A stretch of 37,356 bases of DNA from Sulfurospirillum sp. (GTDB lineage Bacteria > Campylobacterota > Campylobacteria > Campylobacterales > Sulfurospirillaceae), in NCBI GenBank assembly GCA_021206415.1, contig JAJOKG010000052.1:1-37356 (forward strand), read 5' to 3'. Positions 22,901-32,436 of this stretch are shown one piece after another; within the stretch, counting starts at the first letter, position 1, and each line of letters opens with the position of its first letter. Made by a program: the position numbers and the translations under genes. Below the pieces are notes generated by a model. That model was not told where the DNA came from and did no database searches. It worked only from the letters and a program-made list of their open reading frames with translations.

Positions 22901-22927
22901 AGGGGTCAGGGCTTTACTTTTAACTTT
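22901..22927 (+). repeat. Left terminal inverted repeat of RAYT element
   Basis: 27/27 match to the reverse complement of 23712-23738; contains the transposase stop codon. Confidence 0.9.
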
Positions 22928-23678
22928 TGAAGATTTTACACACACCTGCAACGCTTAAATTAAGATATCGGGCAATGTCACTCTTCGTATACCCATCATG
23001 ATATGCCTCTTTTATAGCATCATTTCGTTCACTTTTATGCTTTACATGTAAAAAATATTCCGCCAATGGCTTTACATGTAAAGGCATAATTTCCCCCTCT
23101 TTTTTCGTGTATTTTGTCTGTTTTAACGCTTCAATGTGCTTCAATTCAGCCTCATTTAATGGAATGTCTAAGGTGTTGAAAATCTCTTGTGTATTGTAAT
23201 GTTTCAACACAAAACTGTTCTGCAAAAACGGTGGAATGGCATCTTTTAAAATGCTGTAACTCGCACAATAGGGATACTCACCCACTTTTGCGCTGAGTTG
23301 TGCTTTAAGCGGATTGGTTTCGATGTATTTAAAGAGTGTAAAAAGATAGTGTTCATCGAGCACATACCATGACTTGAAACGGTCTTGCCACAAATGCCCT
23401 ACACGGTCGTGGCGTTTATTAAAGTAACTCGCATACTGTGCATTAAGCTGACGCATACCAGCAGAGAGATTTTCACGCTTATTTTCAAGGAGAATATGGT
23501 AGTGATTATCCATAAGACAAAAGGCATGAATATTAAATTTAAACTCCCTTGAAATCATTGCCATAAGGTCAATAAATTTGGCTTTGTCATGTTGATCTTC
23601 AAAAACATTTCCTTTCGCAACCCCTCTATTGTAAACATGATGGTAGCCTAAGTTTTCAATGCGTAAACGTCGTGGCAT
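22920..23678 (-). CDS. REP-associated tyrosine transposase-like (Y1_Tnp) protein with C-terminal HTH
   Basis: HVYNRGVAKGNVF, FCLMDNHYHILLE (HUH), MRQLNAQYASYFNKRHDRVGHLWQDRFKS (catalytic Tyr region), C-terminal GYTKSDIARYLNLSVAGVCKIFKS helix-turn-helix. Confidence 0.92.
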   Translation of the reverse strand: MPRRLRIENLGYHHVYNRGVAKGNVFEDQHDKAKFIDLMAMISREFKFNIHAFCLMDNHYHILLENKRENLSAGMRQLNAQYASYFNKRHDRVGHLWQDRFKSWYVLDEHYLFTLFKYIETNPLKAQLSAKVGEYPYCASYSILKDAIPPFLQNSFVLKHYNTQEIFNTLDIPLNEAELKHIEALKQTKYTKKEGEIMPLHVKPLAEYFLHVKHKSERNDAIKEAYHDGYTKSDIARYLNLSVAGVCKIFKS

Positions 23679-24508: not shown

Positions 24509-25822
24509 ATGAAACAGCATTCACACGCTTCAAAGAGGTTCTTAAATACACAAGATTATAAAACGCTCTCCCTTTCTGCTTTTGGTGGAGCACTCGAATT
24601 TTATGATTTTATTATTTTTGTCTTTTTCTCAAAAGTGATTGGCTCACTTTTTTTTCCTGCTGATATGCCTATTTGGCTTAGCCAACTTCAAACCTTTGGT
24701 ATCTTTGCCGCTGGTTATTTAGCACGCCCTTTTGGTGGTGTTGTGATGGCGCACTTTGGCGATTTGTTTGGCAGAAAACGTATGTTTACTTTTAGTATTC
24801 TTCTCATGGCAGTGCCTACCTTGCTCATTGGTTGTTTGCCAACCTATGCTGAACTGGGTTACATTGCGCCTGTTTTACTGTTGATTTTACGTATTTCTCA
24901 AGGCTTAGCTGTGGGTGGTGAAATTCCAGGAGCGTGGACATTTGTCGCAGAACATGTCCCCAAAGATAAAGTAGGACTTGCGTGTGGAACGCTGACTTCA
25001 GGATTAACACTGGGGATTTTATTGGGTTCATTGGTTTCTATTATGATGCAAAGCAATTTTAATGCTCAGGAGATGCACGATTGGGCGTGGAGAATTCCTT
25101 TTATTGTGGGTGGTATCTTCGGCTTTATTGCGATGTATTTAAGACGTTGGCTTAAAGAGACACCTATTTTTCTTGAGATGCAAAAGCGTACTAAACAAGA
25201 GGAGTCCAAAAAGCTTCCTGTGTGGAATGTCTTATCGCATCATCTCCCACAAACCATCCTTTCTATCTTACTCACATGGGTACTCTCTGCTGGGATTATG
25301 GTGATTATTGTGACCGCACACGTTTATCTGCAAGGACAGTTTCACTTTGAAGAGATGGATGTTTCTTTTTCACGTCTTTTAGCCACAGCAGGTTTAGCAT
25401 TGGGCTGTGTTTTTTATGGCTATCTAGCCGATAAATTTTCCATTGGCAAAGTAATTTTATGGGGCTGTGTTTTCGTTATTTTAGCCACTATTCTTTTCTT
25501 CTTCTCCCTCTCTTTTGGTGTCATATTTTTATACGTTGCTTATCCTATTGTCGGCTTTAGCATTGGTATCGTGGGTGCGTTTCCTTACTATATGGTGAGA
25601 GCCTTCCCTGCAAAAGTGCGTTACAGTGGTGTCGCATTTTCGTTTAATATCTCTTATGCGATTACAGGGGCTTTAACCTCGTTTCTCATTCCTATTTTGG
25701 CGAATTTCTTTAACAAATACGCCGCAGGATTTTACGTCATGACTGTTTATGTTTTAGGTGCGTTGATTGGCTGGTACTTAATGGCTAAGAATGTAGAAGA
25801 AACACTCTGCGAGGATATTTAA
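24509..25822 (+). CDS. MFS transporter (metabolite:H+ symporter type)
   Basis: GGALEFYDFIIFVFFSKVIG, RPFGGVVMAHFGDLFGRKRMF motifs; start MKQHSHA chosen from ribosome site aagga. Confidence 0.9.
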   Translation: MKQHSHASKRFLNTQDYKTLSLSAFGGALEFYDFIIFVFFSKVIGSLFFPADMPIWLSQLQTFGIFAAGYLARPFGGVVMAHFGDLFGRKRMFTFSILLMAVPTLLIGCLPTYAELGYIAPVLLLILRISQGLAVGGEIPGAWTFVAEHVPKDKVGLACGTLTSGLTLGILLGSLVSIMMQSNFNAQEMHDWAWRIPFIVGGIFGFIAMYLRRWLKETPIFLEMQKRTKQEESKKLPVWNVLSHHLPQTILSILLTWVLSAGIMVIIVTAHVYLQGQFHFEEMDVSFSRLLATAGLALGCVFYGYLADKFSIGKVILWGCVFVILATILFFFSLSFGVIFLYVAYPIVGFSIGIVGAFPYYMVRAFPAKVRYSGVAFSFNISYAITGALTSFLIPILANFFNKYAAGFYVMTVYVLGALIGWYLMAKNVEETLCEDI

Positions 25823-25845
25823 AAGGCTTTACATGTAAAGCCTTT
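25822..25845. terminator. 24-bp perfect palindrome between convergent MFS and comF genes, centred on TTACATGTAA
   Basis: AAAGGCTTTACATGTAAAGCCTTT. Confidence 0.6.
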
Positions 25846-26416
25846 ATCCCTCTTTCGCATCGGCTAATACAAGGGCAAAGAGCACATGAACACCCAGCTC
25901 TTGCAGTGCTTTATGCGCCTCTTTTAAGGTGGAACCTGTGGTAATGATGTCATCAATCAAAACGACATCTATTCCCTCGTTACATGTAATCCTAAAATCC
26001 CGTTTATTTGCCTCTCGAAACGCTCTACTTTTTCCCGAATAGCTCTCATGATTTTGCGCTCTTAAACTTCCATACAGGGGTGTGAGATAGGGCTTGGTTG
26101 CCTTGGCTAAAATGGCGCTATGTGAATAACCATGCCTTATATGATCATCAATGGGGAGCGCATAAATGCCTTTGGGCAATTCAAAGGTTTTTAGAAATTC
26201 ATAAAAAGTATGACGTCCTAATTGAGCAAAAATCTTTGCACCCACAAAGGTATGCTTGGTATGTAGTAAGGGAGCAATATCGCTGTAACGATAAAAAGAG
26301 TAAACCCGAAGCCCATCTTCGAGGATTCTAAAAGCAGGTGTTGGCGTTAAAAAAGTTGAGAGACAGGTTTTACAAAGCGGTTGCCAACTGAGCTTTAAAC
26401 ACAGATGGCAACGCAT
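25844..26416 (-). CDS. ComF family phosphoribosyltransferase-like protein
   Basis: N-terminal CHLC...PLCKTC zinc motif and VVLIDDIITTGSTLKEA PRPP loop. Confidence 0.85.
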   Translation of the reverse strand: MRCHLCLKLSWQPLCKTCLSTFLTPTPAFRILEDGLRVYSFYRYSDIAPLLHTKHTFVGAKIFAQLGRHTFYEFLKTFELPKGIYALPIDDHIRHGYSHSAILAKATKPYLTPLYGSLRAQNHESYSGKSRAFREANKRDFRITCNEGIDVVLIDDIITTGSTLKEAHKALQELGVHVLFALVLADAKEG

Positions 26417-30107: not shown

Positions 30108-30475
30108 TTTTACGCACGACTGGAGATAAAAAATTCCTAAAACAATGAGAGCAAGTCCTAAGACTTTGTAGAGTGTCACACTCTCTGAAAACAAAAAAGA
30201 CCGAAGAGATAAAAAACCACCACAAACGTCAAACCCATAAACGGATAGGCGTAGCTCAGCTCAAACTTTGTCATCGCCGCCATCCAACACAAAGATGCCA
30301 CAAAAGCCGAGACAAAGCCACTTAAAATAAACGGGTCTAAAAACAGCTTCAATAAAAAAATAAGTTTTTCCAGCGTTGCTTCAGGCAAATGCCCATAGTT
30401 TGGAATACGCCACTTAATGACTAACTGCCCATACACGGTAAAAAAAATCGTTCCAAAAATGTATAAATGCGCCAT
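30096..30475 (-). CDS. SMR/EamA-like small membrane transporter (ArnE/ArnF-like), frameshifted near 30211-30216
   Basis: MAHLYIFGTIFFTVYGQLVIKWRI...FELSYAYPFMGLTFVVVFLSLRSFLFSESVTLYKVLGLALIVLGIFYLQSCVKKKG* when one T is added. Confidence 0.75.
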
Positions 30476-31608
30476 TAGCACTCGCTCCATTTGATTAAAA
30501 TCTCACACACCGCATCAATCTCTTCAAGGCTAATACCATAATAAAGGGGCAAACGAACCAATCGTTCACTCTCTTTGGTCGTATAGATATCTTCACCAAA
30601 CATACGACCGTATTTAAGTCCTGCTGGAGCACTGTGCAAAGGAAGATAATGAAAAACAGCGCCAATATTTGCTTCTTTGAATTTCTCTAAAAGTGCGGTT
30701 CGCTCTTCTAAATCTTTGACTTTAAAATAGAACATATGGGCATTATGCACACATCCTTCGGGTATATGTGCCAATTCAATGAACCCTTTTTTCTCCAAAG
30801 GCTCAAGCCTGTCATAGTACGCTTTCCATGCATTTAGACGGTGTTCTTGTATAGTCTCAGCTTTTTCAAGTTGCCCCCAAAGATAAGCCGCTTGAAGCTC
30901 ACTAGGCAGATAACTACTGCCGATATCCATCCAACCGTATTTATCAACCATGCCTCTAAAAAACTGACTGCGATTGGTTCCTTTTTCACGAATAATCTCA
31001 GCCCTGTGAGCAAACTGTTCATCATTAATCAACAACAATCCACCCTCACCACCACTGGTCACATTTTTCGTCTCGTGAAAACTAAAGGCACCTAAGTGAC
31101 CAATCGTTCCTAAAGGTTTACCCTTATAGCTTGCTTCAAAACCTTGTGCCGCATCTTCAACCACAAAGAGGTTGTGACGTGTTGCAATCTCCATAATCAC
31201 ATCCATCTCACACCCAACCCCTGCATAATGCACAGGCACAATCGCTCTTGTTTTAGGCGTAATCGCCGCTTCAATCAAACGCTCATCAATGTTCATCGTT
31301 TCAGGTCGAATGTCTACAAAAACTATTTTTGCTCCACGAAGCGCAAACGCATCGGCGGTACTCACAAAGGTGTAGCTTGGCATAATGACCTCATCACCCT
31401 CTTTAATGTCCAAAAGTAACGCTGCCATTTCAAGTGCGTGCGTGCATGAAGGCGTTAAAAGCGTTTTAGCACACCCATAGCGCTTCTCAAACCACGCTTG
31501 ACACGCTTTACCAAAAGTGCCATCTCCTGACATTTTTACACTATTCATCGCTTCTAAAACATACTTGTCTTCATTGCCTGTTCGAGGCGGTTTATTAAAA
31601 TGTATCAT
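30475..31608 (-). CDS. DegT/DnrJ/EryC1/StrS aminotransferase, WecE/RffA-like
   Basis: FNKPPRTGNEDKYVLEAM, VVEDAAQGFEASYKGKPLGTIGHLGAFSFHETKNVTSGGEGG (PLP lysine). Confidence 0.92.
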   Translation of the reverse strand: MIHFNKPPRTGNEDKYVLEAMNSVKMSGDGTFGKACQAWFEKRYGCAKTLLTPSCTHALEMAALLLDIKEGDEVIMPSYTFVSTADAFALRGAKIVFVDIRPETMNIDERLIEAAITPKTRAIVPVHYAGVGCEMDVIMEIATRHNLFVVEDAAQGFEASYKGKPLGTIGHLGAFSFHETKNVTSGGEGGLLLINDEQFAHRAEIIREKGTNRSQFFRGMVDKYGWMDIGSSYLPSELQAAYLWGQLEKAETIQEHRLNAWKAYYDRLEPLEKKGFIELAHIPEGCVHNAHMFYFKVKDLEERTALLEKFKEANIGAVFHYLPLHSAPAGLKYGRMFGEDIYTTKESERLVRLPLYYGISLEEIDAVCEILIKWSEC

Positions 31609-31636
31609 TTTTTTACTCTTAAATAAATTTTATAGA

Positions 31637-31739
31637 GTTGTGAGAACTCTTGGCACGCCTTTAGAGCTAAGCTCTAAAAGCTACGCTAACGCTGAGTTTT
31701 CCTCGGCGGAATGCCCACGCACCTTTGGGTGCTTTTTTA
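31637..31739. ncRNA. Candidate structured RNA / leader, GC-rich, strand uncertain
   Basis: About 53% GC by hand count in an AT-rich intergenic gap; hairpins GAGTT-GTGAG-AACTC, CTTTAGAGC-TAA-GCTCTAAAAG, and GCACC-TTTG-GGTGC-TTTTTT at the plus-strand end. Confidence 0.4.
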
Positions 31740-32436
31740 TTAATGAATCTGACTACTTTTAAGAAAATGTTTGGCGTTTTCGCCCTCATTTAAAATTAAA
31801 TCTATCACACTCACCCCATGCTCAAAGGGAGGAAACAGTTGGTGATACTCAGCATACCCACTATAATCCATCCACTCCACGCCAATTCCCGCTGCTTCAA
31901 AAATGGACTCATCCAAATAATCACGTGCAGCTGGACCACTGAGATAAGTCGTTGCCCCCAACTCCTGACACAACGCTAACAGTCTTTCACTTTTGCCCTC
32001 CGCTAAAACAAACTCTCTGGAGTCTCGAATTTTTGTTTTAATGTCAAGCATCCCACACAATGCATCAATAAAATAGCGATTAATCTCGCTAATATGTATC
32101 TGTGTCGCTCCTGCGTACAACGCTTCAAACTGCTCTTTATAGGCCTTAAAAAAAGGGTGCTTTAGCGTAACTTTGCGCAATGCTTTTCCAATGATTCACA
32201 TGCCACTTAGCATCGGTTATCATTGTCTCATTGATTTTTTGATGCAGACTCTCCTGACGCACAGCAATACTGAGCCACTGCAAACCATTTTGGGTTTTAA
32301 TCTTATTGCGGTTACGCCAATCATTTTTGGTGTATTGCATGTCATCGTACAACACAAACTCATCCACACTGCCAATAATGTCAAAATACCCCTTCCACGG
32401 GATATAATTTGATTGTAAAATTGCTACTTTTTTCAT
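31740..32436 (-). CDS. WbqC-like family protein, frameshifted (A7 run 32148-32154)
   Basis: MKKVAILQSNYIPWKGYFDIIGSVDEFVLYDDMQYTKNDWRNRNKIK; joins as ...SYAKAPFFKAYKEQFEALYAGA... with one base removed. Confidence 0.88.

Follow-up and report, generated by a model that had tools for sequence, protein, structure and literature searches.

The wbqC-wecE junction

The analysed window, 37,356 nucleotides of a Sulfurospirillum contig (JAJOKG010000052.1), contains a minus-strand operon in which a wbqC-like gene, present as two overlapping ORFs with an apparent frameshift near 32146-32180 that is either real or an assembly error, is followed by a wecE-like gene (Table 1). Between the start of the wecE-like gene (31608, minus strand) and the stop of wbqC (31740, minus strand) lies a gap of exactly 131 bp, in agreement with the approximate length given in the first-pass annotation, which had placed here a GC-rich structured element, seen either as an antisense small RNA of about 100 nt or as a structured leader of the aminotransferase gene.

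Table 1. Coordinates and assignments of features in the window.
Feature	Position	Strand	Basis or remark
GAGTTGTGAGAACTC	31635-31649		Hairpin piece of the first-pass annotation, present
CTTTAGAGCTAAGCTCTAAAAG	31659-31680		Hairpin piece of the first-pass annotation, present
GCACCTTTGGGTGC + TTTTTT	31719-31738		Terminal piece of the first-pass annotation, present
TATAGA	31631-31636		Present
Entire extent of the truncated repeat copy (HP1, core and HP4, but no HP5, the hairpin that forms the 3' inverted repeat)	31634-31738	+	BLAST family, R1 and R2 matches
R1 model match	31629-31757		92.6 bits
R2 core model match	31651-31736		82.6 bits, E 2e-32
HP1, 5' terminal inverted-repeat hairpin AGAGTTgtgagAACTCT	31634-31650	+	Aligns with 5' end of full-length copies
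HP2, GCCTTTAGAGC-TAA-GCTCTAAAAGC	31657-31681	+	Stem covaries across the repeat family
Conserved linker CTACGCTAACGCTG (family form CTACGYTRACRCTG)	31681-31694	+	Inner Y/R pair co-varies, C-G or T-A
HP3, GAGTTTTCC-TCGGC-GGAATGCCC	31694-31716	+	Compensatory changes in stem among orthologous copies
HP4, GCACCTTTGGGTGC plus T6, intrinsic-terminator-like, plus strand only, against operon direction	31719-31738	+	Terminator search, alignment
WecE-like DegT/DnrJ aminotransferase, next operon gene	30475-31608	-	TIGR02379, E 1.9e-197
wbqC-like flanking gene, split in two overlapping ORFs	31740-32436	-	PF08889 in both ORFs
Y1 gene (REP-associated tyrosine transposase-like), adjoining gyrA	22920-23678	-	Flanked by inverted repeat AGGGGTCAGGGCTTTACTTTTAACT

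All of the hairpins named in that annotation are present, and the element folds far more stably than shuffled sequences on both strands (z -3.3 on the plus and -4.6 on the minus strand, none of 200 shuffles being as good). The G+C content of 49.5% over positions 31637-31739, with 51% in the core, is high relative to the window mean of 38.7% but slightly lower than the approximately 53% first reported. The terminator-like hairpin said to end the plus strand was recovered, two such sites being found where 0.3 were expected, and Rfam gave no match for the window at gathering score or for the element at E <= 1, as anticipated from the earlier remark that no RNA family was recognised. The hexamer TATAGA, previously taken for a -10-like box, belongs to the conserved 5' end (TATAGAG) of a repeat and is therefore no evidence for a promoter of the element's own; a promoter search at the locus returned weak matches only.

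A dispersed repeat and an IS5-type insertion sequence in Sulfurospirillum

A BLAST search with the element found 11 matches in its own genome at E <= 1e-5, and 16 were obtained with the family consensus at E <= 0.001. Copies were detected in all 24 Sulfurospirillum genomes searched, with at least 16 in the window genome. Within the window, an R1 match at 25819-25925 (E 0.003) was weak and unconfirmed by R2, and was rejected. The BLAST search, for which the first-pass annotation had named a remnant of a known repeat as the refuting outcome, thus comes close to that outcome in identifying a repeat copy, although no earlier description of the repeat was found in the open literature searched by genus and by core sequence; the folded core of the repeat is apparently undescribed. 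Carriers of the exact core pattern in a named genome collection were Sulfurospirillum, Sulfurospirillaceae and Campylobacterales/Proteobacteria MAGs, and plasmid and phage collections searched with the repeat gave no match. The sole match in a viral collection was one core copy on an IMG/VR viral contig (L273, 5683-5768), where its neighbours, one gene on the minus and one on the plus strand, both seem to encode phage structural proteins.

An alignment of 41 full copies defines a unit of about 144 nt with the order HP1, HP2, linker CTACGYTAACRCTG, HP3, terminator-like HP4 and HP5. Copies are intergenic by a simple ORF-based call and often occupy the entire gap. Relative to neighbouring genes they lie in the same direction in 18 cases, in the opposite direction in 21, between convergent genes in 11 and between divergent genes in 12, and this lack of orientation preference speaks against a dedicated role as terminator, leader or antisense RNA. 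The core or element also occurs in head-to-tail tandems at L192 (1511-1935), where as many as four units lie within about 425 bp, and at L044 and L264 (the latter in G015).

The full-length copies carry AGASTTCTTGCARAACTC at both ends, in inverted orientation. In 26 of 38 copies, where 13 would be expected, the 3-mers on the two sides are the same; covariation is confined to these three positions, which read ANT. A TA target duplication, the first reading from the ends, was ruled out by this comparison of flanks. Empty sites in sister species confirmed insertion at several loci. Full-length copies are thus short, non-coding and multi-copy, with target duplications, empty sites and terminal inverted repeats in common with an autonomous element, as is characteristic of MITEs.

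Regarding this autonomous element, DDE transposases were searched for in the genus, and a scan of their flanks revealed a 916-bp insertion sequence (IS) that has AGACATCTTGCAAAACTC as its ends and is bordered by an ANT duplication; the duplication is identical on both sides in 18 of 19 ISs, a 907-bp cousin counted. The IS and the repeat have the same 18-bp ends, and in three MITE copies the 18 bp at the 3' end are identical to those of the IS. The IS contains two ORFs, which match HTH_Tnp_4, DDE_Tnp_4 (PF13359) and the IS5 family model NF033581, each ORF alone falling below the NF033581 whole-protein cut-off because the gene lies in two frames. The combination of DDE_Tnp_4 with HTH_Tnp_4, a length of about 0.9 kb and a 3-bp ANT duplication conforms to the IS5/ISL2 type, an ANT target duplication being typical of the ISL2 group. 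Given the same 18-bp ends and the same duplication, this IS5-family (ISL2-like) IS is the likely mover, and to judge from these sequence features it probably acts on the repeat in trans. It was detected in five of the 24 genus genomes, a sixth holding a diverged cousin, and was not found in the window genome, which is 86% complete. The 907-bp cousin, present at L165, L171 and L176 of G006, has ends AGACTTCTTTCATAACCC and likewise an ANT duplication.

The window copy departs from the full-length form in that HP5 and the 3' inverted repeat are missing, also in the orthologous copies, and no ANT duplication was found around it; lacking HP5, it is not movable by the IS5 mechanism as it stands. Eight species have a copy in the wbqC-wecE junction (G000, G002, G006, G008, G009, G015, G016 and G017), G015 with two in tandem; the junction is empty in 14 of the 22 species matched there, including the closest (G003, flanks 90% identical). 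In these empty relatives the gap is 17-24 bp and the stop of wbqC overlaps with the start of wecE, as in G013 (CAATGATCC); as read from these sequences, the insertion therefore separated two overlapping genes.

Distribution and covariation of the core

The covariance model of the full element gave matches in other families of the order. The core model was matched in 84 of 397 phylum genomes, all Campylobacterales (families f1, there in genus g1 only, f4, f6, f11 and f17), with no match in any of the seven genomes that represent other genera in the family to which Sulfurospirillum belongs. Copy numbers, counted from the matches listed per genome, are lower bounds. In other Campylobacterales families the core, comprising HP2, the linker, HP3 and HP4, occurs without the MITE ends. 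Ends of the Sulfurospirillum type are nevertheless present in one genome from another family (G403), which suggests transfer or shared activity. Several core copies in family f17 (L298, L299, L302 and L307) begin right after the apparent stop codon of a gene.

The stems differ in sequence yet stay paired, and the check for covariation across relatives proposed in the first-pass annotation thus gave a conserved structure with covariation. Among copies found by BLAST, 15 pairs have double changes, and the double-change cells number 62, compared with 20 in shuffles. Sets chosen by covariance model lean towards pairing, which the BLAST-found set does not. In the former the counts were 244 against 81 for distant copies, aligned by fitting to the model, 116 against 39 for the core alignment and 71 against 26 for further matches in a set almost free of gaps, where slid controls gave at most 18. 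At the window locus itself, HP3 of the G000 and G002 orthologs reads TTTTCC..GGAA and TTCTCT..AGAG, corresponding to two compensated pairs. The inner linker pair changes jointly, mostly between C-G and T-A.

G-U pairs are nearly lacking in HP2 (1 of 154 cells in the gap-free set and 6 of 283 in another count), whereas HP3 keeps one fixed U-G, which dominates the strand asymmetry of wobble pairs, otherwise about even. The near-absence of G-U in HP2 is more readily reconciled with a palindrome at the DNA level than with RNA, while the fixed U-G in HP3 leans the opposite way. HP4 is often followed by a T run, yet many distant copies have no T-tailed terminator.

Origin of the window copy and relation to known elements

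The first-pass observation of a structured element is thus confirmed, and the unit is a dispersed mobile repeat, not a locus-specific small RNA or leader. The position in the 5' region of the wecE-like gene and the terminator on the plus strand are what a leader or an antisense RNA specific to this locus could account for, but the element occurs at many unrelated loci with unrelated neighbours and in both orientations, it is absent here in 14 species including the closest, and the promoter matches are weak, so that such a role is very improbable. A REP-like element mobilised by a RAYT (Y1) transposase, with the minus-strand core forming a CGTAG-hairpin like the GTAG tetranucleotide of REPs, also appears improbable, if less so. 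CTACG adjoining HP2 is nearly invariant, placing GTAG 5' of the hairpin (CGTAG-HP2, minus strand), a REP-type tyrosine transposase gene is present in the window, and Y1 genes co-occur with the element in a sample of the order (25/38 versus 43/112, p 0.0045, a value that ignores relatedness). However, no copy of the element lies within about 1.5 kb of any of 20 Y1 loci, the inverted repeat that flanks the Y1 gene of the window is a different and unrelated one, 13 carriers of the element have no detected Y1 gene, and the full-length copies have DDE-type ends and a target duplication.

Another candidate explanation, possible but not favoured, is that the core would be a functional class of structured RNA, transcribed from the plus strand and ended by the terminator, with the MITE as its vehicle. 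The strong compensatory change, the conserved linker, the conserved U-G in HP3 and the frequent T run after HP4 point in this direction; the lack of a preferred orientation towards genes, the scarcity of G-U in HP2, unusual under constraint at the RNA level, the distant copies whose HP4 has no T-tailed terminator, and the closest species, which lost the element at the window locus or never had it, point away from it.

The window element is therefore best explained (probability roughly 0.85) as an old copy of a dispersed intergenic repeat, truncated at its 3' end and probably immobile, the repeat in its full-length form being a MITE mobilised by an IS5-type IS. According to this explanation, the Sulfurospirillum MITE of about 144 nt, with ends AGASTTCTTGCARAACTC and a 3-bp ANT target duplication, would be moved in trans by cut-and-paste through an IS5-family (ISL2-like) transposase, and an older hairpin core (HP2, linker CTACGYTRACRCTG, HP3 and HP4) would be nested inside it. 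On this view a copy entered the wbqC-wecE junction and now lies there as a hairpin spacer in the minus-strand operon, with a putative effect on processing or coupling. Against this stand the presence of the IS in only five of 24 genus genomes (and the cousin in a sixth) and not in that of the window, and the lack of an ANT duplication and of HP5 in the window copy. In addition, the core is commoner and better conserved than passive filling of a MITE should be, and orthologs keep its pairing, so that mobility alone may not explain it. Tentatively, the three-hairpin core with its linker could be an undescribed, Campylobacterales-wide structured element, selfish or functional and acting as RNA or as single-stranded DNA, with different vehicles carrying it between families, the IS5-type MITE in Sulfurospirillum and another mover elsewhere.

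What appeared to be an orphan non-coding RNA is thus one copy of a dispersed element whose likely mover can be named, and this assignment prevents false annotation of small RNAs or riboswitches at hundreds of loci. The analysis also brings out a core with stems that vary almost without restriction yet stay paired across several families; whether hairpins of bacterial repeats are kept by RNA function, single-stranded DNA transposition or palindrome correction thereby becomes testable in culturable Sulfurospirillum species.

Bacterial MITEs with hairpin transcripts include the Correia elements, ERIC and the Coxiella QMITEs (review PMC10969869; PMC5896051), which the repeat resembles in being short, non-coding, intergenic and structured, with tens of copies and terminal inverted repeats, and some of which have terminator-like parts (SPRITE), as the repeat does; it differs from them in its sequence, in duplicating ANT instead of TA, and in a covarying core that recurs across several families without MITE ends. 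Regarding IS5/ISL2 elements, the two-ORF layout of the partner IS corresponds to that of the published ISL2-group elements ISCaa2 and ISCaa3, of 914-916 bp (PMC3196728), and the ends and 3-bp ANT duplication of the repeat match those of the partner, whereas the repeat has no transposase and shares the ends alone. With REP/BIME it has in common palindromic intergenic units, tandem pairs and a GTAG adjoining a hairpin on one strand, but unlike the REP/BIME and RAYT system it is unlinked to a RAYT gene, has terminal inverted repeats and a target duplication, and forms a larger multi-hairpin unit. The repeat is a new family of a known kind of element, with a covarying core that is unusually widespread.
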